Shown here piece by piece: positions 3,731 to 34,000 of a stretch of 64,000 nucleotides of DNA (position 1 is the stretch's first letter; every line of letters starts with the position of its first letter). Both the position numbers and the translations under genes were made by a program. The DNA is from Flavivirga abyssicola (GTDB taxonomy: Bacteria > Bacteroidota > Bacteroidia > Flavobacteriales > Flavobacteriaceae). The stretch covers positions 3,831,001-3,895,000 of the forward strand of contig NZ_CP141266.1 in assembly GCF_030540775.2 (NCBI RefSeq), given 5' to 3'. The notes beneath the pieces are model-generated. The model searched no databases. It saw only the letters and a program-made list of their open reading frames with translations, and was not told where the DNA came from.

Positions 3731-6700
3731 TTAAAATGTAAGGTTAAATCCTAAAGTTATTTGTCTTAATAAAGGAAATGCGCTTAGCCCAGTTTCTGGA
3801 TCGGCATGGTCAAAATCAGTTATTATAAATAAGTTTTGCCCCTGTAAATACATATTAAGATCAATACCTTTTAATATATTCTTGGGCAAATTATAGGCCA
3901 AGGATGCTGTTCTTAAACGTATGTAAGAAGCATCTGTATATGCGGCATTACTAGAACTAAATGCAAAAGCTCCATTTCTAAAATCGGTTACTGGTATACC
4001 ACCACGATTTGTTAACCATAACTTTTGAAAATCTGTGATATCTCCTGGTTGCTGCCAACGGTTTAAAAATTCCACAGAAACATTTTCCATGCCACCTAAA
4101 GGCCTAAGATCTTCAGTTTGAACAGAACGCCCTAGTTGTTTTTTAAATTGAAAGAAAAAGTTTAGCTGCCAATTTTTGTATCTAAAATTGTTTCCAAAAC
4201 CTCCAAAAAAGTCTGGCGTTAAATCAACCAAGAATTCTCTGTCATCATTTCTACTAATTCTACCATCACCATCAATATCAGTAAATTCATATGCTCCAGT
4301 ATCTGGGTTAACACCTAGATAATTATATACTCGTTGTACATTTAATGATTCCCCTACAACTAAATTACGAGCAAATGGTGTGTTTTCAATATCTGGAAAA
4401 CTAACCAATTCATTTCGTTGTCGAGAATAGTTAAATATGGTTTTCCATGAGAAATCTTTAGTTTCAATATTTCTGGTTGTTAGATCTATTTCGAAACCTG
4501 AATTTTCAACAACCGCATCTAAATTTCTCCTAAAGTTTCTAAATCCTGTAACTTCAGATAAAGGTTCAGTGACTAACTGATTTCCAGAGCGATTTCTGTA
4601 CCATGCAGTTGTTAAAAATATTCTATCGTTAAAAAAACCTGTTTCTAAGGCTAACTCTACTTTATCATTAGATTCCCATTGTAGGTTTGGGTTAGGAAGT
4701 TTAGTTGTCGATATGGCTCCTAATACATTATATTCAAAGCTTGTAGCTTCGTAAGTGTCTAAAAATTGTAATTGCCCAATATTGTCGCTACCTGTAACAC
4801 CTATACTAGCCCTTAATTTACCAAAGCTAAGTACACTACTATCCACCAATAGATTTTCTTTGGAGAATATCCATGCCATTCCAATGGCCCCAAAATTACC
4901 AAACTGTTTTCCTGGACCAAAGCGACTGGAACCATCTCTACGTCCTGTAAAGTTTAAAATATATTTTCCTTGATAATTAAGATTAATACGTCCAAAAACA
5001 GAATTAAATTTATATTCTTCTTCTACTTGATTTAAGGGTGTTAATGTTGCAGCCGCTAATCTGCTAAATATTAAATCATCAGAAGGAAACCCTTCTCTTA
5101 GTTCAGCAAAACTATCAGTCGTTCTTTTTTGTAAGGTGCCTCCAACCAAAAATTTCAAGTCTAAATCGCCAAATACTAAGTCCCAATTTATTTGTGGTTC
5201 AACAATCCAGGACTTTCGTCTGGAATTATTTATATAAAATTCTGACTGTACAGAGCTAGGAAATAAATCAGGGAATCTAAGTTTGGTAAAAGGTTCAGCC
5301 CTGTATTCATCAAATATAAGATCAGTGTATCCAAAACGTGATGACAGCTTTAAGTTATTCGTAAGTTTATATGAAATATTGGCATTAATTAATGTGGTGG
5401 TGGTAATGCTATTGTATATTTCGTTAAGTTGTGCTAAGGGGTTATTCCAGGTATTTAAACCGTTTTCATCGGGTTCCCAGTTTAAATTCCCTTCATCATC
5501 ATACAACGCAGGGGCATTAGGTGCTAATCGTAACGATTGGATGTAAAAATTATTTCCAGGGATATCGTTATCATTTACATTAAAATTTGCAGTGAGGTTT
5601 ATTGAAAAACGTTTGTCTTTAGATTGGTGGTTAATATTACTTTGTAATGCTAATCGGGTATAGCCTTTATCTGAAGGAAATACCGTGGTTTCATTTAAGT
5701 AAGTTCCACTGATTAAAAACTTTGTTTGCTCACTACCTCCTGACACACTAAGTTGAGAGTTTTGTCTTATTGCTGTACCTCCTACTAATACTTTTTGCCA
5801 ATCGGTATACCTATTTTGGTCCCATGTACCATCAATATCAAAAGTTCTAAGACCATTAGGAACGTTAGGGTCTGTAGGGGCTAAATTAGAATTAGAAAAG
5901 ATTTCTCTTCGCATCTCTAAATACTGTTCAGTATTTAATAAATCTTTAAATAAAGATATTCTACTAAATGTAACACTAGAATTGACACGAAATTGCGTTT
6001 TGCCTGCTTTTGCTTGTTTTGTGGTAATTAATACAACGCCATTGGCACCTCTGGAACCATAAATAGCAGTTGCATCAGCATCCTTTAATATTTCTATACT
6101 TGCAATATCTGCTGGATTTATGGAATTTAGTGGACTTACATTTCCAAATCTTTCAAAGTTAACATTTATGTTAGATAAGGATTCTCCGTCAAACGGTACA
6201 CCATCAACTATAAACAATGGAGGAGAGGTTCCGGGTGAAGATTGGTTACCTAATCTATTAATTGAATTTACACCTCTAATAACAATATTTACACCTCCAT
6301 CGTTAAGGCCGCTGCTTTGAGAAATATCTACTCCAGGTGCCAGTCCTTGTAAAGAAACAATAATGTTGTTAGTGGGCTGTTTGTCAATGTCTTTAGCTTC
6401 AATTTTCGAAATACTCCCTGTTTTTTCTCTTTCCTTTACAGAGTAGTATCCAGCATTAACAACAACTTCATTTAATGTGCTAATGTCTTCTATCATAACA
6501 ACATCAATAACCGTTTGGCTTCCAACAAGAATTTCTTGTTTTTTAAAGCCCAAATAAGAAAACACTAAAATATTTTGGGAATCCGGAACAACAATAGTGT
6601 ACTTACCATCAAAATCACTAACAGCACCTTTATTTGTTCCCTTAACAAATACTGTTACTCCTGCAATAGATACACCAGATTGATCAGTTACTTTACCCGT

Positions 6701-13007: not shown

Positions 13008-13035
13008 ATTAAGAATTGCTTTAGAATTATTTAAG
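13008..13035. promoter_or_regulatory. Tandem TTAAG-type operator upstream of PAP2 gene
   Basis: Three half-sites with an exact 11-bp period are visible: ATTAAG (13008-13013), CTTTAG (13019-13024) and TTTAAG (13030-13035). Each is at most one base from YTTAAK. The array ends 68 bases before the ATG of the PAP2 gene. It matches the arrangement of the sites at 21149 and 23392 and is probably bound by the OmpR-family regulator encoded at 22672-23352. It is weaker than those two. Confidence 0.5.
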
Positions 13036-13079
13036 ATTAGATACAATATTACTAAAGGCTAACCTTAGAACACACATAT

Positions 13080-13102
13080 ACATTCGTCTTAAAATCGAAT
13101 GT
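13080..13102 (+). promoter_or_regulatory. Hairpin directly before the PAP2 start codon
   Basis: ACATTCG (13080-13086) pairs perfectly with CGAATGT (13096-13102); the start codon begins at 13104. If transcribed, the stem would cover the ribosome entry region and could lower or condition translation. The effect is inference. Confidence 0.35.
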
Positions 13103-13103
13103 T

Positions 13104-13868
13104 ATGAGTTATATAAGAATAATTACTTTAGTTATAAGTGTATTTACTTTTTCTACTTTAAACAGTCAAATAATTTTATTAGATAAAAAACACTTAAAAA
13201 AAGAAAAAAGCTTATTGCAAAAAAGTATTTTACCTGCAAGCATTATAATAAGTGGAGCAGCATTAAGTAAGAGTCTTTTTGAAAAAAGCTTGCAAAAGGA
13301 CATTAGAAAATTTGCAGGTAATAATTTTAATTCCTCAATAGAAGATTATACGCGTTACGTACCTATTATTGAGTTGTATGCAGCAGATATTCTTAATATA
13401 AAGGCTAAGAATCATTGGTTTGATCAAACCAAAAATTTAACCATGTCTATCTTAATAACAGATTTTATTACCTATAAATTAAAAAAAGGCATAAAAAAGG
13501 AACGACCTGGCAGTACCATAACACACCCTTCATACGAATCTTTTCCTTCCGGACACACATCTTTTGCTTTTGCAAATGCTTCAGTACTATATCAGGAATT
13601 TAAAGATTCTAATAAAATCTTGGCATATAGTGGCTATGCCTTTGCTGTAACAACAGGCTCTTTTAGAATGCTTAATAATGCACATTATCTTTCTGATGTG
13701 TTGGTAGGTGCTGGAATTGCAATTTTGGTCACAGAACTTATATATCATTTTGAGCCTATTAAGTGGAACCCTTTTAAAAAGAATGAAAATATTACTTTTA
13801 TACCAAAAATAGGAAGAGACGATTTTGGTAAAGAAAACTATGGTTTATATTTTAATGTTCGTTTTTAA
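13104..13868 (+). CDS. PAP2 family phosphatase (membrane lipid or polyprenyl phosphatase)
   Basis: This 254-residue protein has an N-terminal signal or membrane segment and the three-part acid phosphatase signature: KGIKKERP (K-x6-RP), FPSGHTSFAFA (PSGH) and FRMLNNAHYLSD (R-x5-H-x3-D; the Ser usually before the Arg is Phe here). Family members remove phosphate from phosphatidic acid, undecaprenyl pyrophosphate or lipid A. It is the first of two PAP2 proteins in the window (the other is at 20544-21110). An 11-bp-spaced operator lies upstream, which suggests control with the nearby envelope genes. The exact substrate is not determined. Confidence 0.88.
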   Translation: MSYIRIITLVISVFTFSTLNSQIILLDKKHLKKEKSLLQKSILPASIIISGAALSKSLFEKSLQKDIRKFAGNNFNSSIEDYTRYVPIIELYAADILNIKAKNHWFDQTKNLTMSILITDFITYKLKKGIKKERPGSTITHPSYESFPSGHTSFAFANASVLYQEFKDSNKILAYSGYAFAVTTGSFRMLNNAHYLSDVLVGAGIAILVTELIYHFEPIKWNPFKKNENITFIPKIGRDDFGKENYGLYFNVRF

Positions 13869-13880
13869 ATTTAGATTAAG

Positions 13881-14315
13881 CTAATCTTCAATCTCATTTA
13901 TATATTCTTTAACAACATGGCCTTCTTTGTTATAGAGAACTTCAATGTCTTTGCCTTCAAATTCTAACTCGATTTCGTAAAATTCACGTTCATTTGATTC
14001 GACAAACGCTACGTCATCAACCTCATATTTTTCATAGCTAGTTTGCAAATTTTCCAGAATAATTAAAGGTAGATTATTCTTGTTAATGTCATGTTCAGTT
14101 TCTAGCCAACGTCCCTGTTCGTCAAAGGTTGATGAATATTTTTGGCTATTTTTATAGAAACTGACTTCCCATATGCCATTTTCGTATGTCCATTTTAGAT
14201 GCTTTGCTTCAGAAAACTTTGTTTCAAAAGCTTTTTTTACTAGCTCTGGTATATCTTGCTGTTTTTGGCAACAAAATAGTAAACTAAGAATAATAAAAGG
14301 GATATAATTTTTCAC
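13881..14315 (-). CDS. PepSY-like domain lipoprotein
   Basis: This 144-residue protein has a short lipoprotein signal (IPFIILSLLFCCQKQ). The rest resembles the putative beta-lactamase-inhibitor-like PepSY-like family: VKKAFETKFSEAKHLKWTYENGIWEVSF, followed by FDEQGRWLETEHDI, and a second half ending YNKEGHVVKEYI, each a helix plus strands. Such small envelope proteins often neighbour two-component systems or TonB receptors in Bacteroidota, but their biochemical role is not established. It is divergent from the TonB-dependent receptor at 14433, and both starts face an array of 11-bp-spaced half-sites at 14347-14374. Confidence 0.75.
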   Translation of the reverse strand: MKNYIPFIILSLLFCCQKQQDIPELVKKAFETKFSEAKHLKWTYENGIWEVSFYKNSQKYSSTFDEQGRWLETEHDINKNNLPLIILENLQTSYEKYEVDDVAFVESNEREFYEIELEFEGKDIEVLYNKEGHVVKEYINEIED

Positions 14316-14346
14316 AATTAAATTTTATTAAATCTAATCACTAATT

Positions 14347-14374
14347 CTAAAATTACTTTTAAGTAAATCTAAAA
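14347..14374. promoter_or_regulatory. Tandem TTAAG-type operator between PepSY gene and TonB receptor gene
   Basis: Half-sites CTAAAA (14347-14352), TTTAAG (14358-14363) and CTAAAA (14369-14374) follow each other at an 11-bp period. The first two enclose the spacer TTACT, which is identical to the spacer in the sites at 21149 and 23392. The array lies 32 bases from the PepSY start and 58 from the receptor start. It is a likely but degenerate target of the regulator encoded at 22672-23352. Confidence 0.5.
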
Positions 14375-14432: not shown

Positions 14433-17279
14433 ATGAAAAGCATTTTAATAGGTATCCTATTGTTCATCAGTTCGGCTTCCATGGCACAAGGGAGTATGAT
14501 ACAAGGCCGGGTTATTGATGATAACGGAATTAACATTTCCGGAGCTATAGTCGTTATAGAAAGTATTAACAGACAAACGTCAACAGACATTCAAGGAAAC
14601 TTTTTTCTTTTAGATTTAAATGAGGGACACTATACCTTAAAAATCTATTATTCGGGTTATAAAACATTAGAAAAAGAAATAAAGCTAGAAGCACATCATA
14701 GAAATATTGAAATTTTTACATTAACGACAAATAGTGTATTGTTAGACGATGTGGTTTTAAATGTTTATTTAAATGATAATCGTTTAAGAGACATTAATTC
14801 ACAAAAGAATAAAGCGAATATCACTAATGTTGTATCTATAGACCAAACAGGTAAATTTCCTGATGCGAATATAGGAGATGCTTTAAAAAGAATTCCTGGA
14901 ATCACCATGCAGGTAAAAGAGGGAGAAGCACAGGACATCATAATAAGAGGGCTCGCCCCCGAGCTAAATTCCGTTACGATTAATGGTAGTAGGGCGCCTT
15001 CTACAAATGGTGATAATAGAAGCGTTCAATTAGATGTTATTCCTACAGATATGATTGAGTCTATAGAAGTAGCTAAAGCACTTACACCCGATATGGAAGC
15101 TGATGCATTAGGCGGGTCTGTAAATTTAATTACCAGAACAGCACCACATGGGTTTAGGCTTTCTACGACATTAGGCTCAGGGATTAATTTAATTTCAGAC
15201 AAACGCATCTGGAATACTAATTTTTTAATAGGTAGCCGATCTAAAAATAAAAAGTTTGGTTGGATGATTTCGGCTACCGTGAATGATAATGATTATGGAT
15301 CGCATAGTATTGAAGCGGAATGGGGCAATACTTTGGAGTATAATACAGGAAACACAAATATGCAGGGTGAAGCCATTATAGAAGAAGTAGATGTTTCTCC
15401 ATATACAAACACATTATTAGAGCAGACATTTTTTTTACAAAGAGTTCGCCGTAGTCTTGCTGCAAACTTTGAGTATATGTTTAATAATAACCACACCGTA
15501 TTTTTTAAGTCTTTTTTAAATTGGAGAGATGATAGAGAAAATAGGTTTGTTTTTGAGAGCGAAATATTGGATCCAATTGATATCGCACAGGAAAATTTTA
15601 CTTTAAACGGAACCAACCTTATTAACTTTCCAGTTGAAATTAGCAGGCAAACCATTGGGGGAGCAAATAGTAGCAGAAGCAAAAATGGACGTTTAGAAGT
15701 TAAAAGATTGCAAAACTTTAGTGTAGGAGGGACTCATTTATTTAAAAATGTAAAAACGGATTGGTTAGCTTCATTCGCTGATGCTTCAGAAAAGGTTAAC
15801 GAGCGATTAGCTGAATATAAATCTGAATACAGTGTATTTAACGATGTTTCAAATACTCGATTTCCTTTTTTAAGACCATTAGATTTAGATGATGCAAATA
15901 ATTTATCAAATTTTGAATTTGAAGAAATAGTAGAAGAAGTATTATTTAATAAAGAAGAAGACTTTAATTTCTTAGTTAATACTGAAATACCGTCAAGTAT
16001 ATTGGGATTTAATGATGGTACTATAAAATTTGGATTAAAAAATAGATTTAAGTATAAAGCAAGAAATAATGATTTTACGTTTTTCGATTTTGAAGACGAC
16101 TATCCAACCTTGGGCGATGTTCCTGTAACGAATTATTCAGATCCCGATTTTTTAGTTGGTGAAAAATATAAATCTGGATTTTTTGCAGATAAAAAGTGGT
16201 TGAGTGGTTTGAATTTGATTAATGGTGAAACCATAGGAGAGGAGTTTTTAAGACAACATTATTCGATTAAAGAAAATGTCTTTGCCAGTTATATGATGCT
16301 TAATGAAAAAATAAAAGATAAACTACATGTGGTAGCTGGAGCTAGGTTGGAACATACAAATATTAAAGCGAAAGCAAATAATATTGAGAATCCAGATGAT
16401 TTTAATAGGGTTACTAATGAGAAATCATACACAAACATATTGCCTGGAATTCATTTAAAATATAATTTTTCTAAACAATCCATTATAAAGTTTGCCTGGA
16501 CTAATACTTTGGCAAGGCCTAATTATGTCGATTTAGTTCCAACATTAGAGATTGTATTGGCAGATGAAGAAATTATACTTGGTAATCCAGAGTTGGATGC
16601 AACAACTTCTATGAATTTTGATATTTCGGCAGAACATTATTTTAAATCTTTTGGCATTATATCTGCAGGGCTTTTTTATAAAAATATCAAAGGTTTTATC
16701 TATACTTTTAAAAGTGAAACCACAGATGATAGATTTGGATCAGGAACCAGCGGGTTTACAACGTTTAAGCCACTTAATGGTGATAGCGCATCACTTTTTG
16801 GTGCAGAAATTGCTTTTCAAAAACGACTTTCTTTTTTGCCTGGGTTTGCCAAAAACTTTAATGTCAATATTAATTATACCTATATAGACTCTAACGCAAA
16901 TGGAATAAGAAATTCAAAAGGGGAGGAGCGAGATGATTTAGACCTTCCCAATACTGCCAGACATACTTTAAATACAGCTTTGGGTTATGATGATAAGATG
17001 TTAAGCACCCGATTAGCGTTAAACTTTTCCGACAGATATATTGAAAATATAGGAGGTAATAGTTTTGAAGATATTTATTATGACAAACAGCTATTTTTAG
17101 ACTTTAACATAAATTATGTGTTAAAAAAACATTTAAGTATTTATGTAGCAGTAAATAATATAACAAATCAACCACTTCGATTATATCAGGGAATATCCGC
17201 AAGAACTGCACAGGCTGAGTACTATGATAGAAGATTTGCTTTTGGGTTAAAATATGACCTTTTTAAAAAACAAAAATGA
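14433..17279 (+). CDS. TonB-dependent outer membrane receptor
   Basis: This 948-residue protein has a signal peptide (MKSILIGILLFISSASMAQG), a carboxypeptidase-regulatory-like domain at about 25-105, a plug with NIGDALKRIPGITMQ and IIIRGLAPELNSVTINGSR (about 140-240), and a barrel ending in RRFAFGLKYDLFKK. There is no STN domain, so it transports without sigma signalling. The plug type resembles TonB receptors used for organic substrates or siderophores, but the ligand cannot be read. Its stop codon lies one base from the stop of the convergent ArnT-like gene. The upstream operator suggests it belongs to the envelope regulon. Confidence 0.92.
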   Translation: MKSILIGILLFISSASMAQGSMIQGRVIDDNGINISGAIVVIESINRQTSTDIQGNFFLLDLNEGHYTLKIYYSGYKTLEKEIKLEAHHRNIEIFTLTTNSVLLDDVVLNVYLNDNRLRDINSQKNKANITNVVSIDQTGKFPDANIGDALKRIPGITMQVKEGEAQDIIIRGLAPELNSVTINGSRAPSTNGDNRSVQLDVIPTDMIESIEVAKALTPDMEADALGGSVNLITRTAPHGFRLSTTLGSGINLISDKRIWNTNFLIGSRSKNKKFGWMISATVNDNDYGSHSIEAEWGNTLEYNTGNTNMQGEAIIEEVDVSPYTNTLLEQTFFLQRVRRSLAANFEYMFNNNHTVFFKSFLNWRDDRENRFVFESEILDPIDIAQENFTLNGTNLINFPVEISRQTIGGANSSRSKNGRLEVKRLQNFSVGGTHLFKNVKTDWLASFADASEKVNERLAEYKSEYSVFNDVSNTRFPFLRPLDLDDANNLSNFEFEEIVEEVLFNKEEDFNFLVNTEIPSSILGFNDGTIKFGLKNRFKYKARNNDFTFFDFEDDYPTLGDVPVTNYSDPDFLVGEKYKSGFFADKKWLSGLNLINGETIGEEFLRQHYSIKENVFASYMMLNEKIKDKLHVVAGARLEHTNIKAKANNIENPDDFNRVTNEKSYTNILPGIHLKYNFSKQSIIKFAWTNTLARPNYVDLVPTLEIVLADEEIILGNPELDATTSMNFDISAEHYFKSFGIISAGLFYKNIKGFIYTFKSETTDDRFGSGTSGFTTFKPLNGDSASLFGAEIAFQKRLSFLPGFAKNFNVNINYTYIDSNANGIRNSKGEERDDLDLPNTARHTLNTALGYDDKMLSTRLALNFSDRYIENIGGNSFEDIYYDKQLFLDFNINYVLKKHLSIYVAVNNITNQPLRLYQGISARTAQAEYYDRRFAFGLKYDLFKKQK

Positions 17280-17280
17280 T

Positions 17281-18693
17281 TTATTGATAAGAATAGATGC
17301 TTTTGTATTTATTAGACTGTATTTTTTTTAACTTGGTTTTTTGCTCTTTTTTTAATGAAAGCGTATCACGATGCGAAATAATTAGTAAAAAAGGCGTTCT
17401 TGTTTGCAATGCTTCATTGAATTGATTTGAAGTCATTAATTTAATTTTCCCATTTGAATAAAATCTGCTAGAATAACTTTTCTTATGCAAATGATAAACA
17501 GGAATACTGTCATCAGCTTTATCATTCAACAAATATTTGTCGGTCTTACTATAAAACTCTAGACTTTTATTCTGAAGAGAGACTGTGAAGAAGATAACCG
17601 CAATTATTGGTATTATTAAACTGGTTATTAAATACGTTTTTTGCAATGTTATGGAGCTCCACCAAAAAACAATCAACAATGCTAAAGGGATCATAACAGG
17701 CATGATGTATGGGTGGATTAGACTTTTGGAAATGGTAAAGAAAATAGGGGTCCATAACAGCCATAACATGAGAAACAATAACCATTTGTTTGTTTTTAGA
17801 TTAAGTCGCGCAGTCCATATTTTTTTAATAACTAAGATCATCCACGGCAGTGTAAATAAAATAAGGAATACCCATATCATGCCTATAGGTTGAGATTTTG
17901 GAAAACCATATTTATCACCGCTCCAACTAGAATCCAAAAAACGTTTAAAGTGTTCGCCTACTATAAAATAGTCCCAAAAGCCAGGACTCGCTTTTTCGGC
18001 AAAATAATACCAGGGGATACTTATTATAATGACGATAAGTGTGCCTATTAGCCAAGGCATTTTTCTTATTACTTTTATATGGTCTTTAAAAAACAATAGC
18101 CAGAGACACAGAGGAGGCAAAGTTAAAATGATAATAATCGGACCTTTTGCCAATAACCCTAATCCTAGCCCTACGAAGAATAAATAATTCCAAACAGTTC
18201 TTTTTTCAGTTTTACTACTTTCCCAAAAAGAAAGCATGGTTAGCACAACGCAAAAACAAAGTGACATGTCTGTAGAGACAACACCAGCATGTAATAAAAA
18301 CTCAGGAATGGTTAACAGAATAAAGGCAGGTAAGAAGAAAGGTAATCCTTGTTGCTTAGAGTATTTACCAATCATAAAAATTATTAAAATGGCAAATATT
18401 AAAGAAGGTAATCTTACCGCAAATTCTGTTACCCCGAAGAGGTTTATACTAAAAGCAGATAGCCAGGTTGATAAGGGTGGTTTGGCCCAAAAAGGGATGT
18501 TATAATCAATTTGTAGCGTTATCCAATTATTGGTCTCGGACATGATTCGGGCAATCTCGGCATATCGAGCCTCAGTTTTATCCATTAGAGGAAGCACAGC
18601 ATTAATAAAAACCCTTATTATTAATAAAACCAATGTGCTTAATAAATAAAATATAGGCTTATTTAAAGTATGCTTTGAAGAACTGCCTTCCAT
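17281..18693 (-). CDS. ArnT-like GT83/PMT-family membrane glycosyltransferase
   Basis: This 470-residue polytopic membrane protein has the N-terminal signature of ArnT and related polyprenyl-phosphate-sugar-dependent transferases: LPLMDKTEARYAEIARIM with the acidic pair, then WITLQIDYNIPFWAKPPLSTWLSAFSINLFG. About ten hydrophobic segments follow, then a short soluble tail. ArnT moves aminoarabinose from undecaprenyl phosphate to lipid A; here the sugar and acceptor are unknown. It is the last gene of the operon running from 21110 and overlaps the GT2 gene by 31 bases, so the two are translationally linked. The GT2 enzyme is well placed to make its lipid-linked sugar donor. Confidence 0.88.
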   Translation of the reverse strand: MEGSSSKHTLNKPIFYLLSTLVLLIIRVFINAVLPLMDKTEARYAEIARIMSETNNWITLQIDYNIPFWAKPPLSTWLSAFSINLFGVTEFAVRLPSLIFAILIIFMIGKYSKQQGLPFFLPAFILLTIPEFLLHAGVVSTDMSLCFCVVLTMLSFWESSKTEKRTVWNYLFFVGLGLGLLAKGPIIIILTLPPLCLWLLFFKDHIKVIRKMPWLIGTLIVIIISIPWYYFAEKASPGFWDYFIVGEHFKRFLDSSWSGDKYGFPKSQPIGMIWVFLILFTLPWMILVIKKIWTARLNLKTNKWLLFLMLWLLWTPIFFTISKSLIHPYIMPVMIPLALLIVFWWSSITLQKTYLITSLIIPIIAVIFFTVSLQNKSLEFYSKTDKYLLNDKADDSIPVYHLHKKSYSSRFYSNGKIKLMTSNQFNEALQTRTPFLLIISHRDTLSLKKEQKTKLKKIQSNKYKSIYSYQ

Positions 18694-19457
18694 GAAGTTT
18701 TTGTTTGTGTTTTATACTTTTTTGAGATTAATATAAGGTCGTACCAAAGTGTAAAAAAATAAGATATCTTGACTTTAGAATTGCTAGTGTCTATCCAAGA
18801 TTCTAAAGGGATTTCTTTTACAGTATGTTTGATACTATTTTTGCCTATAAGTTGAATTAAACGATGAAATAACTCAACATCAAATAGCCATTTTGAAAGA
18901 AACCTTTCTTTAAACAATTGCCTGGCTAAATCTGCTCTAAATACTTTACAACCGCACTGTGAGTCGTAAATAGAAAGTTTTAATTGCATAGAAATTAGCG
19001 TAGCAATAAGCCGTCCAATAAAAAACCTGAGCAGTTTTCTATTAATAATATTATCTATTTTAGATATTCTTGACCCAAAAACAAATAAAACCTTGTTGTC
19101 AATAAGTTTACTTAATTTTAAACATTCATCTAAAGTTGTTGACAAATCCGCATCCAAATAAGCGATTTTACTAAATCTTAAATGTTTTTCCGAAAATAAA
19201 AACCCCGAACGAACTGCTGCGGCCTTCCCGCTATTTGTTTTTAAGTTATTAATAAAAACTTGGTTAGGAGCTCCTGCTTTTATTTTGTGAAGTATTTCAA
19301 GTGTATTATCGCGTGAACCATCATTAGAAAAAACAATAGCAACATTATTCTTCTTCTGTAAGAAAGAATGGAATACCTCTGTTTGTAGTCTTCCAAATTC
19401 ATTATAACAAGGAATAACTAGTACCAGGGAAAAATGTGTATGACTATAATAACTCAT
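18663..19457 (-). CDS. GT2 family glycosyltransferase, dolichyl-phosphate-sugar synthase-like
   Basis: This 264-residue protein has the GT-A features of DPM1/Alg5-like enzymes: LVIPCYNEFGRL near the start, VFSNDGSRDNTLEIL, the metal-binding AYLDADLS, and FGSRIS. The SQCGCKVFRADLARQLF and RFLSKWLFDVELFHR segments are typical of polyprenyl-phosphate glucosyl- and mannosyltransferases. I see at most one weak hydrophobic stretch, so it is probably peripheral rather than integral like ArnC. The expected reaction is transfer of a nucleotide sugar to polyprenyl phosphate for the GT83 enzyme encoded next. It starts 7 bases after the GT9 gene ends. Confidence 0.88.
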   Translation of the reverse strand: MSYYSHTHFSLVLVIPCYNEFGRLQTEVFHSFLQKKNNVAIVFSNDGSRDNTLEILHKIKAGAPNQVFINNLKTNSGKAAAVRSGFLFSEKHLRFSKIAYLDADLSTTLDECLKLSKLIDNKVLFVFGSRISKIDNIINRKLLRFFIGRLIATLISMQLKLSIYDSQCGCKVFRADLARQLFKERFLSKWLFDVELFHRLIQLIGKNSIKHTVKEIPLESWIDTSNSKVKISYFFTLWYDLILISKKYKTQTKTSWKAVLQSIL

Positions 19458-19464
19458 AAACTAT

Positions 19465-20544
19465 TTAAACTGCTAGTTTTTTTATTGGATTTAAACTGTT
19501 TTTTACTTTTTTAATAATATCGTCTGTTGATTCCATGTTTGTGTTAACAGCAGTACTATTATTACTATAAGGATGGTATCTCTTTATATTAGAAACCGAA
19601 AACAATCCAATGGTTGTGGTTTGCGATGCAGATGCTAAATGCATAATACCGCTATCTGCACCAATAAAAATTTCTGTGTTAGCAATTACAGCCGCTATTT
19701 CTCGAATATCCTTACTATAAAATGAAGAAGCCTTAAATTGAATCTGGGAGACATTTTCTACAGGTAAAATTTCAAGAATATTATAGTCATTAAATTCAGC
19801 TTTTAATTTTTCGTAAAAAGAGAGCCACCAGGATTCACTGTAGCACTTTTTATCCGTAGCATAAGTAAATATGCTAATACTTTTATTTTGTTTGTTAACA
19901 GCTAATTGGTCTACAATTTTTTTTCCATGATTTATTTCTGCAGGATCAAGCTTTATATCTAATGAAGGAATAACGTTTTTGCTTTTATGACCAAACAAGG
20001 TTAGGTATTCCCTTAACAAATAGATTTGTTCTTTTGCCATATGATGTTCAGTGTTATGTATAAGATGCTTATTTTCATCAGGATTACCTATTATTTTATG
20101 TTTTGAAGCGGATAATAGAGTAAATAACTTCCCTGAAGATGAATCGCTTGCTCCATTAATAGCGATATCATATTTTCTTTTTCTTACAGATAGGCATCCT
20201 TTTAAATAGTGTAGGGGATATTTAAAAGGCCTTTTTGGTAATTGGATAATCTTATCTACAGGATTGTAATTTTTAAAAATAATGGGAGACAGCCCACCAT
20301 TTACAATTAAATCAACTTTACAATTTGGAAATGTTGAAATAACTTCCTTTACCAAAGGCGAAGTAAGTAGTTGATTGCCTAACCTATGGTTTGGTCTACA
20401 AATTAGGATGTTTTTTATTTCATTTACATTTATGGTCTCGCCTTTATTGGGAACCTTGGTGTTAGAAATGTTTTTGGTAATAGCATGCATGAATTTCCTC
20501 TTGTAAACATTTATTCTTTTTAAAAGTTTTTTGCGCTGATTCAT
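19465..20544 (-). CDS. GT9 family (heptosyltransferase-like) glycosyltransferase
   Basis: This 359-residue cytoplasmic protein has the GT-B pattern of LPS heptosyltransferases: the N-terminal loop ILICRPNHRLGNQLLTSPLVKEV and the C-terminal nucleotide-sugar site FIGADSGIMHLASASQTTTIGLFS. It probably adds a sugar to a lipid A-core or related glycolipid acceptor. Its ATG overlaps the stop codon of the upstream PAP2 gene by one base (TAATG), so it is translationally coupled to it. The sugar may be a heptose or another sugar; the sequence does not decide. Confidence 0.88.
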   Translation of the reverse strand: MNQRKKLLKRINVYKRKFMHAITKNISNTKVPNKGETINVNEIKNILICRPNHRLGNQLLTSPLVKEVISTFPNCKVDLIVNGGLSPIIFKNYNPVDKIIQLPKRPFKYPLHYLKGCLSVRKRKYDIAINGASDSSSGKLFTLLSASKHKIIGNPDENKHLIHNTEHHMAKEQIYLLREYLTLFGHKSKNVIPSLDIKLDPAEINHGKKIVDQLAVNKQNKSISIFTYATDKKCYSESWWLSFYEKLKAEFNDYNILEILPVENVSQIQFKASSFYSKDIREIAAVIANTEIFIGADSGIMHLASASQTTTIGLFSVSNIKRYHPYSNNSTAVNTNMESTDDIIKKVKNSLNPIKKLAV

Positions 20545-21110
20545 TAAAATTTATATTTAAAACCTATGAGGTAATTATTGTTATTATTTGAAAAAGAAAG
20601 ACTGAGTTTTTTCTTTTGATAAGGTGTTGTAAACAGGTAAGAACTGCCAATACCAACAAGAGCACCAACAAGTATGTCCCAATGGTCATGTTTTTTAGCA
20701 TCTATCCTGCTAAAAGCTGTAAATCCAGCCAAAACATAAAATGGGATACTTTTTTTAAAGCCGTATCTTTTATGAATAAATGAAGCTGCTTGGAAAGTAA
20801 CAGATGTATGACCCGAAGGAAATGAGTTTTCGTTGCTCGCGTCTGGTCTTGATTTGTTAATCGATAACTTTAAACCATAAGTAATAATACTTGAAAGGAT
20901 GGCTCCTTTGGTGAATTGCCAACGCCCTTTTTTATCTTTGAATAACAAAGTCGTTGTAACTGCAGCAACAGGAGCGGTAAATAGTATAACATCTCCTGCA
21001 GTTTCTATGGTTTTGTTTTGTGAAAACGAATAGAAACAATTAACAAGTAGAATGGTTAATAGCCAAACTGTTGTGAAAGCATTACACGTATGTTTTAAGA
21101 CTGGTAGCAT
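20544..21110 (-). CDS. PAP2 family phosphatase
   Basis: This 188-residue membrane protein has complete PAP2 motifs: KLSINKSRP (K-x6-RP), SFPSGHTSVTFQAA, and SRIDAKKHDHWD (SR-x5-H-x3-D). Hydrophobic segments flank them, and there is a signal-like N-terminus (TVWLLTILLVNCFYSFSQN). Likely substrates are lipid A phosphate or a polyprenyl (pyro)phosphate, consistent with the glycosyltransferases it is co-transcribed with. It is the first gene of the four-gene operon 21110-17281. A strong TTAAG-type operator lies 38 bases upstream of its start. Confidence 0.9.
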   Translation of the reverse strand: MLPVLKHTCNAFTTVWLLTILLVNCFYSFSQNKTIETAGDVILFTAPVAAVTTTLLFKDKKGRWQFTKGAILSSIITYGLKLSINKSRPDASNENSFPSGHTSVTFQAASFIHKRYGFKKSIPFYVLAGFTAFSRIDAKKHDHWDILVGALVGIGSSYLFTTPYQKKKLSLSFSNNNNNYLIGFKYKF

Positions 21111-21131
21111 CTGGTTTTTCTAATGAATCGC

Positions 21132-21176
21132 CAAAGTAGATGCAGAATCTTAAATTACTCTTAAGAGAAGTTTAAG
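21132..21176 (-). promoter_or_regulatory. Operator and promoter of the PAP2-glycosyltransferase operon
   Basis: Three half-sites at an exact 11-bp period are seen: CTTAAA (21149-21154), CTTAAG (21160-21165) and TTTAAG (21171-21176). Ten bases nearer the gene is TACTTTG on the minus strand (21132-21138), a near match to the TAnnTTTG box. The same arrangement and 10-base spacing occur at 23375-23430 before the response regulator gene, with 21 of 22 bases shared between 21144-21165 and 23387-23408. An OmpR-family activator site overlapping the -35 region is the natural reading. Confidence 0.7.
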
Positions 21177-21208
21177 AAGATCTATAGTTTAAGTATTGGT
21201 AGAAATGA

Positions 21209-21406
21209 TTATCCTTCTAAGACCTTTTGAGAACTAGGACATTTAGTATTACCATAAGAACAAAAAATACAGCAGCTACCATCTAACGGTCTCAATATTT
21301 TTTTGCAATTACCGCATTCGTGTATAAAATGAATACTGGTTTCGGACATTTTTGCGTTCATTTTATGGTTACAATAGGGGCAAGAAATAGTAGCTTCTAA
21401 TGGCAT
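21209..21406 (-). CDS. Small GDCCVxC-type Cys-rich protein
   Basis: This 65-residue protein has two CxxC pairs (Cys9/12 and Cys31/34), followed by the motif GSCCIFCSYGNTKCP (Cys45, 46, 49, 56). It matches the pattern of the GDCCVxC family, some members of which are selenoproteins; here all positions are Cys codons. The two CxxC pairs suggest metal binding, probably zinc or another thiophilic metal. The function is unknown. It is the third gene of the response regulator-kinase operon, 8 bases after the kinase stop codon. The product could be a metal-handling accessory, but this is inferred only from position. Confidence 0.75.
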   Translation of the reverse strand: MPLEATISCPYCNHKMNAKMSETSIHFIHECGNCKKILRPLDGSCCIFCSYGNTKCPSSQKVLEG

Positions 21407-21414
21407 GGGTATTA

Positions 21415-22668
21415 TTAGTTAAAAGTTAATTTAAAAACATGCAGATTATCACTAAACGTATAGCTAATGGTATAATCATAATTATCACAAATTTTCTTAA
21501 CAATAGCTAACCCAAGACCAAGAGATTTCTTGGTTGTGTTCTCTTTATAAAATCGATCGTATAATTTTTCAGGGTTTTTAATAGCCGCTTCTCCAGAGTT
21601 TGACACTATAAATTCATTAGCAACGACTTTTACAATAATCTCTCCTTCAGAAGATGTGTATTTTATAGCATTTGATAATAAATTATCAGCAATTATTCTT
21701 GCTAAATATGAATCACCATTAATTTCAATAGATTCCATTTCTGTTGTTAGAATGGGAACCTTATTTAATCCCTCAAAAGATTCTATAGAATTTTTTAGAA
21801 TATTGGTGAAATTAATCCGATTAGAGGTTTTAAATTGTTGATTTTCAATTTTAGCTAATAGAATTAATTTTTTATTGAGTGTTGCTAGCCTGCGGGCATT
21901 ATTAGATATTTCTATTAAAAGGTTGTACTGTTTTTCATTAATTTGATTCTCATCAAATAGATTACCAATCTTAGCTTGAATGTTAGCCAAAGGCGTTTGG
22001 ATTTCGTGAGAGACATCTTCTGTAAATTGTTTTAAATTTTGATAGTCTGAAATAACCTTATTTGTTAAGGTTTTTATTTCTGTATTTAATTCGGAAAATT
22101 CTTCTATATCTGTTTCTTCCAGATTGAGAGCTTTGTTGGATTGTATAGAAAACGTCTTTATTTTTTTAAGGTTATCAAAAAAAGGCTTCCAAACTAATGC
22201 GGTGTTTTTTCTACTTAAATAATATTGTGCCAGAAACACTGTTATAAGAATTACGACATAAGACAAAATAATAGCTTGTAAAATATCGTATAGCTCCATA
22301 ACCTTGGTTCTAACGGAAATTTTATATGTCCTTTCATTTATTTTTTTATATGTGATTAGTTCCATATAAGGTTCTAACTCTTCTTCAGCAGGATCATATA
22401 AAATAGTGTCTTTTATTCTCTGCGTCCCTACATATTTAACTTCTTGGGTGTTTATTATTGGATGCACATTAATAAGAACCCCTTCTTTTTCAATTAATTT
22501 TTCAATTCTAAATGCCTGTGAATTTAGAGCTTCTTCGGTTTCGTCTTCTATAATATACTTGGTAACAAAATATAAAACAATAACGCTCAAGACCATGGCA
22601 AGCAAACCATAAGTCAAAAAACTTCGGGATGTTTTTTTTAGTAATTTTATTTTCTTTTTCTGGTTCAT
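21415..22668 (-). CDS. Membrane sensor histidine kinase
   Basis: This 417-residue protein has a membrane segment at about 20-40, a periplasmic sensor region at about 41-128 and a second membrane segment at about 130-150. The HisKA domain has FTEDVSHEIQTPLANIQ (phospho-accepting His221), and the ATP-binding domain has NLLSNAIKYTSSEGEI (N box) and KKSLGLGLAIVKKICDNY (G box). The sensor region has an acidic patch (DPAEEELEP, about 92-100) that might bind cations, which is speculation. It follows its partner response regulator by 3 bases. The likely target genes share TTAAG-type sites with its own operon. Confidence 0.93.
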   Translation of the reverse strand: MNQKKKIKLLKKTSRSFLTYGLLAMVLSVIVLYFVTKYIIEDETEEALNSQAFRIEKLIEKEGVLINVHPIINTQEVKYVGTQRIKDTILYDPAEEELEPYMELITYKKINERTYKISVRTKVMELYDILQAIILSYVVILITVFLAQYYLSRKNTALVWKPFFDNLKKIKTFSIQSNKALNLEETDIEEFSELNTEIKTLTNKVISDYQNLKQFTEDVSHEIQTPLANIQAKIGNLFDENQINEKQYNLLIEISNNARRLATLNKKLILLAKIENQQFKTSNRINFTNILKNSIESFEGLNKVPILTTEMESIEINGDSYLARIIADNLLSNAIKYTSSEGEIIVKVVANEFIVSNSGEAAIKNPEKLYDRFYKENTTKKSLGLGLAIVKKICDNYDYTISYTFSDNLHVFKLTFN

Positions 22669-22671
22669 AAT

Positions 22672-23352
22672 TTACATGTCTTCATCCGTAAATTTGTACC
22701 CAATTCTATAAACGGTTCTAATATAGTTAGCAGCGACATCTGTTAGTTTTTTTCGTAAATGATTGATGTGTACATAGATGAAGTCAAAACTATCAACAGT
22801 ATCGATATTATCGCCCCATAGATGTTCTGCGATAACTTCTTTTGAAAGTACTCTGTTTTTATTAGTAATAAAATAAACCAGTAAATCATACTCTTTTTTA
22901 GTTAACTGTATTGGTTTTTCATTAACATAAGCTTGCATGGCTTCTGTTTTAATTTTTATTTCGTTAAAAGAGATATTGGAATCTCCATCATATTTACCTC
23001 TTCGCATCACAGCTTTAATACGTGAATTTAGTTCCGTAAGATGAAAAGGCTTCGTTAAATAATCATCAGCCCCTAAATCTAATCCTTCTACTTTGTCATC
23101 AAGCGAGTTATTTGCCGAAATAATAATTACAGGAATTTTTTTACCCTCTTTTTTTATTAGTTTTAATAAATCCAATCCATTACCGGTTATTAAATTTATA
23201 TCTAAAAGAATGAGGTCGTATTCATATATAGAGACTTTGGAGATCGCTTCATAATAATCAGAAGCAGTTTCACATATGTGAGCATCTCTATTTAAAAATT
23301 TAACGATAGATTCTTGTAATGTTATTTCATCCTCAGCGATTAATATTTTCAT
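22672..23352 (-). CDS. OmpR/PhoB family response regulator
   Basis: This 226-residue protein has a receiver domain (acidic pair in IAEDE, phospho-acceptor Asp51 in LILLDINL, Lys101 in DDYLTKPFHL) and a winged-helix DNA-binding domain from about 130 (QLTKKEYDLLVYFITNKNRVLSKEVIAEHLWG, ending TVYRIGYKF). Regulators of this family bind tandem direct repeats spaced by about one helical turn. Four such half-sites lie 40-78 bases upstream of its own start, so it is probably autoregulated. It forms an operon with the kinase and the small Cys-rich protein downstream. Kinship to PmrA, QseB or CusR subgroups cannot be settled by eye. Confidence 0.95.
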   Translation of the reverse strand: MKILIAEDEITLQESIVKFLNRDAHICETASDYYEAISKVSIYEYDLILLDINLITGNGLDLLKLIKKEGKKIPVIIISANNSLDDKVEGLDLGADDYLTKPFHLTELNSRIKAVMRRGKYDGDSNISFNEIKIKTEAMQAYVNEKPIQLTKKEYDLLVYFITNKNRVLSKEVIAEHLWGDNIDTVDSFDFIYVHINHLRKKLTDVAANYIRTVYRIGYKFTDEDM

Positions 23353-23374
23353 TTATTCTTTAATTGTAATTTTG

Positions 23375-23430
23375 CAAAATATATTAAGAATCTTAAGTTA
23401 CTCTTAAGCATCTTTAAAGATAAGTTTAAT
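23375..23430 (-). promoter_or_regulatory. Operator and promoter of the two-component operon
   Basis: Half-sites at an 11-bp period are CTTAAG (23392-23397), CTTAAG (23403-23408), TTAAAG (23414-23419, shifted by one) and TTTAAT (23425-23430). The first two form CTTAAG-TTACT-CTTAAG, an exact fit to YTTAAK-N5-YTTAAK. Ten bases closer to the gene is TATTTTG on the minus strand (23375-23381). The layout is the same as at 21132-21176. It implies autoregulation by the regulator encoded at 22672-23352. Confidence 0.7.
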
Positions 23431-31097: not shown

Positions 31098-34000
31098 ATG
31101 AAGAAGTATTTAATACATATCGTTTTATTTTTATGTTTTACGCAACAATTCCATGCTCAAGAAGATGGGGTTGTTTCGTTTGCAATACCTGTTAGAAATT
31201 CTTTAAAATTTAATAGACATATTATTAACCCGACCTTTAGTTTTGTAAGAGAACAAAATAAATATATTAGTTTTAACAATAGAAGACAATGGGTTCAATT
31301 CGATGATGCCCCACAAACATATTTATTTGGATATTCTGGTAGGTTTAGAGAAGACATAGGAGTTGGCGTTAGTTTATTTCAACAAAATTATGGCGTATTA
31401 ACAACTTTTGGAGGGCTTTTAAACTTTGCCTATAATGTCGTTTTAAATAGAGATAGTAATCTAACTTTTGGTCTAAATTTAGGATTTTACAGAAGTGGTT
31501 TAAACGAAGGTAAAGTCGTAACAAATTTCCCAGATTCATCATTGGATAATATCCCTTCAAACTCCCTACTAACCATAAACCCTGGAATAAATTATGGTAC
31601 AGACTTTCTTGATTTTGGAATCGCAATAAACAATGCTGTTTTGTATAATCTTAATGCATCTAAAATGGTTGAAGATGATCCAGAACAAAGTGTACAAGCT
31701 CATGTTATGTACACTGGTTATGCAAATACCCGTGGTTTTTTTGATGAAAGTAAATTTTCTGGACTAATCAAGTCAGAATTCAAAAAAGACAATACAGTCA
31801 TTTCAGGAATAGCCATGCTAACAGTACCCAAAGGTATTTGGGCGCAAGCAGGGTATAATACTTTGTACGGGTTATTTGGTGGTATAGGTTTTAATATAAG
31901 TACTCAGATTTCTATAGAGTATAATTATGAAAAAGCGATGGGAGACCTAGTAGATTTTGGTAGTTCCCATGATATTACTTTAGCTTATAAATTCAAAAAC
32001 AGATACAGATATAGATATAGTGGTGATGAAGAAGAAGGTTCTGTTATTATTCCAGACAAAAAATCGAGACGTTATATCGCTAAGCGAAGAGCGCCTTCTA
32101 AACCAAAAGTATCAGCTCAAGATAGAGCAGCTGCAAGAGCTAAAGCTAAGGCGGATGCTGAAGCCAGAGTAGCAGCAGCGGAAGCAAGAGCAAAAGAAAG
32201 AGCAGAAGCAGCAGAAAGAGCTAAAGCTGAAGCTGAAGCCAAAGCAGGAGAAGAAGCTAGACTAAAACGAGAGGCTGAAGCGGCAGCGGCCAAGGCCAAA
32301 GCAGACGAAGAAGCTAGACTAAAACGAGAGGCTGAAGCGGCAGCGGCCAAGGCCAAAGCAGACGAAGAAGCTAGACTGAAACGAGAAGCAGAAGCGGCAG
32401 CGGCCAAGGCGAAAGCGGACGAAGAAGCTAGACTGAAACGTGAGGCAGAAGCGGCAGCGGCCAAAGCAAAAGCAGACGAAGAGGCTAGGCTTAAACGTGA
32501 GGCAGAAGCGGCAGCGGCCAAGGCGAAAGCGGACGAAGCGGCTAGGCTTAAACGAGAAGCAGAAGCGGCAGTGGCCAAAGCCAAAGCGGACGAAGAAGCT
32601 AGACTGAAACGAGAGGCAGAAGCGGCAGTGGCCAAAGCGAAAGCGGACGAAGAAGCTAGACTGAAACGTGAGGCAGAAGCGGCAGCGGCCAAAGCGAAAG
32701 CAGACGAAGAAGCTAGACTGAAACGTGAGGCAGAAGCGGCAGCAGCCAAGGACAAAGCAGACGAAGAAGCTAGACTGAAACGAGAAGCAGAAGCGGCAGC
32801 AGCCAAGGCCAAAGCAGACGAAGAAGCTAGACTAAAACGTGAGGCAGAAGCGGCAGCGGCCAAGGCCAAAGCAGACGAAGAAGCTAGGCTTAAACGTGAG
32901 GCAGAAGCGGCAGCAGCCAAAGCGAAAGCAGACGAAGAAGCTAGACTAAAACGAGAGGCAGAAGCGGCAGCAGCCAAGGCGAAAGCAGACGAAGAAGCTA
33001 GACTGAAACGAGAGGCAGAAGCGGCAGCGGCCAAGGCCAAAGCGGACGAAGAAGCTAGATTGAAACGTGAGGCAGAAGCGGCAGCGGCCAAAGCGAAAGC
33101 AGACGAAGAAGCTAGACTGAAACGTGAGGCAGAAGCGGCAGCAGCCAAGGCCAAAGCAGACGAAGAAGCTAGACTAAAACGAGAAGCAGAAGCGGCAGCA
33201 GCCAAAGCGAAAGCGGACGAAGAAGCTAGATTGAAACGAGAGGCAGAAGCGGCAGCAGCCAAAGCGAAAGCGGACGAAGAAGCTAGACTGAAACAAGAAG
33301 CAGAAGCGGCAGCGGCCAAGGCGAAAGCAGAGGAAGAAGCTAAAGCAGCAGCACCAACACCAGTTGACGATATTACTAAATCGATGAATGATTTATTAAC
33401 AAAGCTAGATGAAACGGTAGCTAGTAGAGATAAAGATCTTAAAGATTTAAAAGAAGAAAATGATTTAGGTGAAAAAGGAATTTTCACAGCGCCGAAACCT
33501 TTTAAAAGTATAACAGCAGAAAATGCGGCACTAGAATCCTTGAAGTCAGAACTTGATGGTGTTATAAACACCCGAAATGAAAAAATTACAGAACTAGAAA
33601 AATCATATAGAGGTTCAATCAACCCTGCTGATTTAAAAATGCTGGAAAGATTGAAATTAGAGCAAGCGCAAGCATTGAAGTCTAGAGAAAATTTAATGGG
33701 AACATTAGAAAAAATTAAAGTAGCTACAGAAATAGAGAGAAAACGAAGAATTAAGCGAGCAGCTTACGATAATGCGGATGATAGATATTCTAAGGATATG
33801 GCAACATTAAATAGAATTAAGCAAAATACTCCTGTAAGTTCAGTACCTCTTAAAGAAGAAGATTTTGATTTTGGTGAAAAACAGAGTGGTAATATACGGA
33901 TTGTAAAAGATGTTAAAAATGTAGAGAGTGGTTATTATTTAGTGATTGCTGTACATGATAATGTTGATAAAAGAGATGAATTTGTGAAGAAAACAGTATC

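Follow-up and report, generated by a model that had tools for sequence, protein, structure and literature searches.

A putative cell-envelope control circuit in Flavivirga abyssicola that probably recurs in many related bacteria

The 64,000-nucleotide stretch of Flavivirga abyssicola DNA analyzed here (the window) most likely encodes an autoregulated two-component system of the OmpR/PhoB type that activates envelope remodelling, with a 22-bp repeat as the core of a class-II-type promoter. Comparison with relatives suggests that this putative cell-envelope control circuit is probably real and recurs in many related bacteria. The genes and sites concerned are as follows.

13008..13088, plus strand: 11-bp-phased array of half-sites before the second PAP2 gene
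13104..13868, plus strand: second PAP2 protein, 254 aa, clustering with a F. rizhaonensis protein that matches Pfam PAP2
13881..14315, minus strand: PepSY-like protein (Pfam PF11396), GTG start
14327..14363, minus strand: operator and -7 box of the PepSY-like gene (37-mer), matrix score 11.4
17281..18693, minus strand: ArnT-like membrane glycosyltransferase (PF02366; PDB 5ezm, E 5.5e-22)
18663..19457, minus strand: GT2 glycosyltransferase (PF00535)
19465..20544, minus strand: GT9 (heptosyltransferase-type) glycosyltransferase (PF01075)
20544..21110, minus strand: PAP2 phosphatase, distant relative of LpxE (PF01569; PDB 6ebu, LpxE, E 9.1e-4)
21129..21165, minus strand: operator and -7 box of the PAP2-GT9-GT2-ArnT operon (37-mer), matrix score 12.0, with a third half-site, CTTAAA, upstream
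21209..21406, minus strand: 65-aa cysteine-rich GDCCVxC ORF between kinase and PAP2 (NF041374, 73.2 bits, cut-off 40)
21415..22668, minus strand: sensor histidine kinase, 417 aa (Pfam HisKA and HATPase_c)
22672..23352, minus strand: OmpR/PhoB-type response regulator, 226 aa (Pfam Response_reg and Trans_reg_C)
23372..23408, minus strand: operator and -7 box of the regulator-kinase operon (37-mer), matrix score 11.0, with more half-sites directly upstream

As the preliminary description had proposed, the gene at 22672-23352 encodes an OmpR-type regulator, whose receiver (Response_reg, 94.8 bits, cut-off 30.2) and winged-helix domain (Trans_reg_C, 75.3 bits, cut-off 26.2) both exceed their Pfam thresholds. 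The kinase passes the NCBIfam PorY-family model NF052314 (T9SS_HK_PorY) with 389.6 bits against a cut-off of 350. Its AlphaFold model has a mean pLDDT of 83.7 and a pTM of 0.52, and the 50 Foldseek matches listed out of 1007 are nearly all titled histidine kinases, kinase fragments or photoreceptors, with TM-scores by query length of at most 0.41 among them. The PAP2 protein reaches 54.1 bits against the equivalog for LpxE, the lipid A 1-phosphatase (PRK09597, cut-off 177). The ArnT-like protein, whose sole PDB match is ArnT (5ezm/5f15), scores 119.4 bits against the equivalog for ArnT, the lipid A aminoarabinose transferase (PRK13279), and misses its cut-off of 567. The GT2 enzyme is perhaps a polyprenyl-phosphate-sugar synthase; its matches to the NCBIfam PpgS and ArnC-type models fall under the cut-offs. 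The second PAP2 protein had no NCBIfam match. The GDCCVxC ORF was overlooked previously, and translations inspected by eye revealed like ORFs at the equivalent position in two Flavivirga loci (L010 and L011).

Direct comparison confirmed the claimed repeat, with positions 21144-21165 (AGAATCTTAAATTACTCTTAAG) and 23387-23408 (AGAATCTTAAGTTACTCTTAAG) identical at 21 of 22 positions. Among the matches listed, the window's other same-strand pairs of 22-mers that agree at 21 or more positions fall at 32.2-33.4 kb and 37.5-44.7 kb; no such pair arose in any of 20 Markov-1 simulated windows. These simulations, together with pattern searches of the genome itself, rule out a chance or mobile repeat. 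On the gene strand, both sites read CTTAAG-N5-YTTAAG followed after 10 bases by a box, TATTTTGC at the regulator and TACTTTGG at PAP2. The second half-site precedes the start codon by 39 bases at the regulator and 38 at PAP2 (counted by hand), in agreement with the roughly 40 bases noted before. Additional half-sites in 11-bp period, also part of the earlier account, are present at both sites: CTTAAA upstream of the PAP2 pair, and CTTTAA and ATTAAA upstream of the regulator pair. Of 4074 intergenic positions sampled, ~2.7% match [ACT]TTWAR, a loose form of the half-site.

Conservation was evaluated with a matrix built from the 22 regulator-promoter sites of 29 loci, all from other genera, the site being missing at 7/29. 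Matrix sites were found upstream of 66 of 80 target genes in eight families, which, like the five operon-internal families, were grouped only after the per-family results were in view. The eight include PAP2, PepSY, an LtaS/MdoB-like transferase, a TonB-type receptor, TolC, GT2 and two more; in relatives, the genes preceded by sites include an RND pump and GT2 cassettes. The opposite strand of the target genes yielded 1/80, operon-internal genes 1/62, the antisense strand of the regulators 3/29, and all other genes 13/260 sense and 10/260 antisense, while 200 column-permuted matrices gave a mean of 0.06/80 and a maximum of 2. The -7 box stood at the matrix spacing in 54/64. Separate sites before the GT2, GT9 and ArnT genes of the Flavivirga-type operon were absent (0/4, 0/3 and 0/4), which speaks against separate promoters for these genes and fits one operon; L010 and L011, where this locus lacks PAP2 and GT9, keep the operator before GT2-ArnT. 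Lack of conservation before orthologous operons was the outcome named beforehand as telling against the shared operator, and the prediction survived it: conservation in relatives supports a common operator for the two-component and PAP2 operons, and with it the predicted autoregulation and the predicted control of PAP2-GT9-GT2-ArnT.

Two further places in the window had been overlooked. The site at 14327-14363 precedes the PepSY-like gene, which ranks second by matrix among the scored window ORFs, after PAP2 and before the regulator, and whose cluster carries a site in 14/20 genes examined. The divergent TonB-receptor gene at 14433-17279 reaches at best -0.3 on its own strand and is unsupported as a target of that site. 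The array at 13008-13088 comprises ATTAAG, CTTTAG, TTTAAG, one weak unit, CTAAAG and CCTTAG, then TACATTCG. It is weaker than the other sites, its proximal 37-mer (13052-13088) scoring -0.4 here versus 12.4 in F. rizhaonensis, and it probably makes the second PAP2 gene a target. The original list of predicted targets, PAP2, GT9, GT2 and ArnT, is supported but too narrow.

Among 101 sites of relatives, picked because they scored high with the matrix, the box reads TAnnTTTR in fixed register, and the two window boxes are imperfect versions of it. The TAnTTTG element first described 10 bases from the array is one reading of this box. The regulator box also fits TAnnTTGY, given for Flavobacterium psychrophilum as the SM5 box (PMC9723704), but the PAP2 box does not. 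Averaged over 106 sites of relatives, there is hardly any signal around -11 and -22, which rules out longer arrays as a family-wide rule; for this reason the longer half-site arrays look like a Flavivirga feature.

A search of the 4.68-Mb genome, suggested at the outset, located exact CTTAARTTACTCTTAAG only at the two known sites of this locus. Allowing up to three mismatches gave 69 occurrences versus 86 for the reversed pattern, without enrichment, so the 17-mer alone loses specificity when relaxed. The search patterns were composed with the known sites in view; two half-sites plus box, at up to one mismatch, occur in three places, all inside the window, versus none for the reversed pattern, and at two mismatches in 29 versus 12. 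The family pattern has no match in this genome at two mismatches, and by this comparison the motif here is drifted from that of the family.

Across 120 Flavobacteriaceae genomes, several of which coincide with matrix training loci, the motif mostly accompanies the regulator. Within the genus, perfect pattern matches occur in 5/5 genomes with a regulator orthologue and 0/7 without. In the family, the motif is found in 6/6 other genomes with a regulator at E ≤ 1e-84 versus 4/113 without, and two of these four have 57-58% homologues. The sequences themselves show the sites with their fixed geometry, the conservation at target families and this co-occurrence. It is exceedingly improbable that the repeats are chance, or a general flavobacterial promoter element tied to no specific regulator. 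The -7 part does correspond to the ordinary sigma-A TAnnTTTG box described in PMC9723704, but there are 31 motif matches versus 4 reversed, 110/120 genomes have none, 23/31 matches have the regulator gene or a homologue within ~7 kb, and operon-internal genes are nearly devoid of sites (1/62). Reading of the sites mainly by a paralogous PorY-family pair (G000:C1:3380863-3382778), or by both systems, is very unlikely. The paralogue is 52% identical, divergent genes ~9 kb away have sites of the CTWAAG type and, at equal distance, a TA box, and similar sites lie 8-12 kb from it in genomes G001, G006 and G008, so cross-binding is possible. However, G001 and G006 possess a paralogue-type regulator (E ~1e-75) without the orthologue and without a perfect pattern match, and inspection by eye found no such site upstream of the paralogue itself. 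The divergent genes look like universal-stress genes.

In the activation mechanism that we favor, the kinase would sense an envelope condition and phosphorylate the regulator, a dimer of which would bind two head-to-tail half-sites 11 bp apart. Placed where a -33 element would lie, 10 bp upstream of the -7 box, it would recruit RNA polymerase and raise expression of its own genes, the PAP2, GT9, GT2 and ArnT-like enzymes, the PepSY-like protein and probably the second PAP2. We infer the binding, the activation, the signal and a change in lipid A or glycans brought about by the targets. Autoregulated OmpR-type systems are usually activators, and repression, with the regulator covering the -33 region and silencing the genes until a signal frees them, appears unlikely. 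The half-sites do fall across the position of the -33 element, and spacing by itself cannot separate activation from repression, but the fixed 10-bp distance to the -7 box, in replacement of the -33 element, is as in PhoB and PmrA activator promoters; for PmrA, the -35 element is described within half-1 (PMC4660055). Quite unlikely, too, is a kinase devoted to type IX secretion control (PorY), with genes that serve secretion or attachment instead of modifying lipids or glycans. The NF052314 score (389.6 versus 350) favors this assignment, as does an ORF elsewhere in the genome with a PglZ domain, which we take to be the PorX-type output domain. Yet an OmpR-type regulator is encoded together with the kinase, the two PorY-family kinases of this genome that exceed the cut-off each adjoin such a regulator, and the representative target proteins scanned gave no match to models named for T9SS components.

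In a more tentative reading, a regulon core would combine a PepSY-like protein, which may be a feedback subunit, with an OmpR-type regulator and an autoregulated kinase of the PorY family. Sites at both regulator and PepSY genes extend beyond Flavobacteriaceae to Prolixibacteraceae (L046), Sphingobacteriaceae (L055) and two Bacteroidota bins (L051, L052). To our knowledge, few response-regulator motifs are known in Bacteroidota, and a regulon of putative envelope enzymes now has a precise, testable operator. The pairing suggests that the PorY label covers kinases partnered by an OmpR-type regulator rather than PorX. Tentatively, Bacteroidota might possess their own envelope-remodelling regulon, built up independently of PmrAB, in which one operator serves varied lipid and glycan cassettes with specificity shifting along the lineage, possibly the ordinary setting of many PorY-labelled kinases. 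Among the literature matches listed, titles and the opening of abstracts appear to contain no description of this system.

Overall, the system most likely works like PmrAB but is not PmrAB. As in PmrAB (BasRS) of enterobacteria, an OmpR-type regulator is paired with a kinase, and head-to-tail half-sites separated by 5 bp replace the -35 region; the PmrA half-sites are given as CTTAAG and XTTAAT, 5 bp apart (PMC3973317), with half-1 overlapping the -35 element (PMC3973317, PMC4660055). The targets are similar as well: ArnT-like and PAP2-type enzymes here, joined in relatives by a DAG kinase and a transferase of the Pfam sulfatase superfamily. For Proteobacteria, eptA is described beside PmrAB-like systems, and mcr together with pap2 and dgkA (PMC10285318). 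The circuit would parallel this proteobacterial grouping of a two-component system with PAP2, DAG kinase and lipid transferase via other protein families. Unlike in PmrAB, the DAG kinase of relatives is YegS-like, the transferase is weakly LtaS/MdoB-like, and the set also includes a PepSY-like protein and a TonB-type receptor. The PmrAB parallel drawn initially put its weight wrongly on the look of the half-sites; CTTAAG is present in Flavivirga, whereas the family consensus half-site is CTTTARA. The base-reading residues of PmrA, Asn188, Asn196 and Arg210 (PMC4660055), align with Asp, His and Tyr in the regulator (numbering counted from the alignment). NCBIfam cut-offs are missed for PmrA (PRK10643, 165.7 of 330 bits), PmrB (PRK10755, 68.5 of 314), QseB (PRK10336, 135.3 of 345) and PhoB (163.1 of 296.2; 151.1 of 270), which, for PmrA along with the recognition residues, rules out filing the system as PmrAB, QseBC or PhoB. 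Because CTTAAG is a Flavivirga trait, the family half-site being CTTTARA, and the base-reading residues are not conserved, the PmrA likeness would be analogy, not descent.

The pho box of PhoB likewise consists of two direct repeats 11 bp apart, which stand in for the -35 element and leave ~10 bp to the -10 box, but the half-site here differs. With PorXY of Porphyromonas gingivalis, the system shares a kinase above the PorY-family cut-off. In that organism, PorX is encoded far from PorY and has a C-terminal ALP domain, and the system is reported not to be autoregulated (PMC8050853). In contrast, the kinase partner here is adjacent, OmpR-type and apparently autoregulated.

The window comes from a Flavivirga genome (Flavobacteriaceae) and sits within a single contig of 4.68 Mb; among named relatives F. 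rizhaonensis is the nearest (regulator identity 99%). The genes considered are as follows, in window positions.

22672-23352, minus, OmpR-type regulator
21415-22668, minus, kinase
21209-21406, minus, 65-aa GDCCVxC ORF between kinase and PAP2 (over the NF041374 cut-off)
21110 down to 17281, minus, PAP2, then GT9, GT2 and an ArnT-like gene
14433-17279, plus, TonB-type receptor
13881-14315, minus, PepSY-like gene
13104-13868, plus, second PAP2 gene

Elsewhere in the window, 32249-33342 holds dense repeats with offsets that are multiples of 57 bp.

Dimers of OmpR/PhoB-type proteins, to which the regulator belongs, target head-to-tail half-sites with an 11-bp period. The preliminary description reported 21 of 22 identical positions between the segments preceding PAP2 (21144-21165) and the regulator (23387-23408); this count is correct, and none of 20 simulated windows contained a 22-mer pair of such similarity. 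The exact 17-mer CTTAARTTACTCTTAAG occurs twice in the whole genome, and relaxed searches with it were uninformative because up to three mismatches gave 69 matches versus 86 for the reversed pattern. Within the window, CTTAAGTTACTCTTAAG (≤3 mismatches) matched five times versus a shuffle mean of 0.63 and maximum of 3 (100 shuffles), and one match lies directly upstream of the PepSY-like gene, with a TAGATTTA box again 10 bases off. Using a pattern of both half-sites plus the −7 box, composed with knowledge of the window sites, we found three places in the genome at ≤1 mismatch, all in the window (PepSY, PAP2 and regulator), and none for the reversed pattern; up to two mismatches gave 29 versus 12 reversed.

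Conservation was evaluated in 80 loci collected around regulator homologues, with L079-L088 (mostly Clostridia) set aside and regulator upstreams compared across L009-L078. Most Flavobacteriaceae regulator upstreams carry CTTTAGAATTyCyTTAGAATy, followed by TAnnTTTA a short way 5′ of the ATG. Regulator upstreams alone, taken from 29 loci outside Flavivirga (L012-L040), served to train a 37-column matrix; a site was obtained from 22 of these loci. The matrix was then applied to the upstreams of script-called ORFs in L009-L040 and the window. Among window ORFs, PAP2 (12.0), PepSY (11.4) and the regulator (11.0) scored highest, the next reaching 5.7.

Genes with a site (score ≥10) per family; further clusters were scored in the same table.
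LtaS/MdoB-like transferase, 10/10
GT2b, 6/6
TonB-type receptor, 12/13
TolC, 8/9
c19, 4/5
PAP2, 12/16
PepSY, 14/20
PAP2b, 4/7
ArnT-like b, 2/3
Regulator, 25/33
HK, 0/32
MFP, 0/9
RND, 0/8
DAG kinase, 1/11
c16, 0/6
GT2, 0/4
GT9, 0/3
ArnT, 0/4
Unclustered genes, 6/225

In a control set excluding the window and Flavivirga, with families grouped after the per-family table had been seen, eight target families had sites in 66/80 upstreams on the sense strand versus 1/80 on the opposite strand, bearing out, with a matrix from other genera, the proposed conservation upstream of related genes in relatives. Corresponding sense and antisense counts were 1/62 and 0/62 for five operon-internal families, 21/29 and 3/29 for the regulator, and 13/260 and 10/260 for all remaining genes. 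Column-permuted matrices gave a mean of 0.06 and a maximum of 2/80 (200 trials), and shuffled upstreams a mean of 0.10 and a maximum of 2 (50 trials). The best −7 box stood at the matrix spacing in 54/64 cases.

The operator also tracks the regulator across genomes. Perfect pattern matches were present in all five Flavivirga genomes with a regulator orthologue and in none of the seven without (20 matches at ≤1 mismatch across the 12 genomes, versus 5 reversed). Among 120 Flavobacteriaceae genomes, a partly non-independent sample since several are also training loci, the family motif (≤2 mismatches) gave 31 matches in 10 genomes, versus 4 reversed. Seven of the 120 encode the regulator at E ≤ 1e-84; all six besides our genome carry the family motif, which at ≤2 mismatches has no match in our genome. 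Four further motif genomes comprise two with 58% (G152) and 57% (G035) homologues and the motif within a few kb, one with a 49% homologue (G072), and one with no homologue at 1e-40 (G079). By hand count, 23/31 matches have the regulator or a homologue no more than about 7 kb away.

Two loci offer a natural experiment. At L010 and L011, from two genomes assigned to the same genus (G005 and G011), PAP2 and GT9 are missing and the array is retained before GT2-ArnT, reading CTTAAGGTTATCTTAAGAGTAATTTAAGATTCTCTATCTACTTTCG at L010. ORFs similar to the 65-aa GDCCVxC ORF are present at both.

The suggestion that half-sites continue at the 11-bp period is borne out in the window: an in-register third unit precedes the PAP2, regulator and PepSY pairs. 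Averaged over 106 sites of relatives, almost no continuation appears. At 13008-13068, upstream of the second PAP2 gene, a single 11-bp register comprises ATTAAG, CTTTAG, TTTAAG, one weak unit, CTAAAG and CCTTAG, and TACATTCG comes after it; the proximal pair scores only −0.4, and the F. rizhaonensis copy 12.4.

Two other loci merit description. L047 has a strong operator copy (scores 23 to 34) before each of three successive small ORFs (4854-6401), and its regulator upstream is absent from those scoring ≥5. Many regulator upstreams in L057-L073 (mostly Cytophagales) have a TCCAGAATTG- or TCCAACATTG-type element, then a TACTTTCG-like box, possibly a shifted version of the operator.

The window regulator belongs to a clade of 30 regulators (support 100/99, tree of 70 rows). 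It falls below the equivalog cut-offs for PmrA, PhoB and QseB, and PmrA's three reported base-reading residues are replaced by Asp, His and Tyr in the alignment. The second place is His in Flavivirga-type regulators (four rows), with half-site CTTAAG, and Asn in those same-clade rows of other Flavobacteriaceae that cover it, with half-site mostly CTTTAR. This concordance, which amounts to one evolutionary event, hints at a specificity shift.

The window kinase and a paralogous kinase (3381543) both exceed the PorY-family model cut-off, each adjoined by an OmpR-type regulator. An acidic stretch is conserved in the periplasmic portion of the window kinase, with consensus KDTLIYDPxQxExExFREL over 48 rows; among the structural matches listed for the kinase's predicted fold, none was informative on the sensor class. 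By ORF reading, the paralogous pair (G000:C1:3380863-3382778; L123 4864-6785; also at L148 and L149) has V-type ATPase-like neighbours. About 9 kb from the pair, divergent universal-stress-like genes (by ORF reading) are preceded by CTAAAG/CTTAAG units in direct repeat, spaced from a −7 box as in the operator, and similar sites lie near the paralogue in G001, G006 and G008. A PglZ-domain match (G000:C1:4108709-4109287) within a 517-aa open frame marks a candidate PorX.

PMC9723704 gives the F. psychrophilum sigma-A −7 box as TAnnTTTG and describes a TAnnTTGY class (SM5) that takes in LPS and gliding genes; the regulator copy TATTTTGC is also compatible with that class. On the simplest reading, the regulator would take over the −33 contact and, we infer, activate its own operon and envelope genes. 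For PmrA, PMC3973317 and PMC4660055 place half-sites 5 bp apart and the −35 element inside half-1 of the promoter. Titles and abstract openings from a literature search contained no description of the present system. In relatives, by Pfam or sub-cut-off NCBIfam matches, the neighbourhood takes in an LtaS/MdoB-like transferase with a DAG kinase after it, as well as PAP2, an RND pump, and GT2 adjoining a lipid-A-disaccharide synthase N-terminal-like protein and an ArnT-like protein. This gene set resembles what PMC10285318 outlines for Proteobacteria, where eptA or mcr is associated with PmrAB-like systems, pap2 and dgkA.
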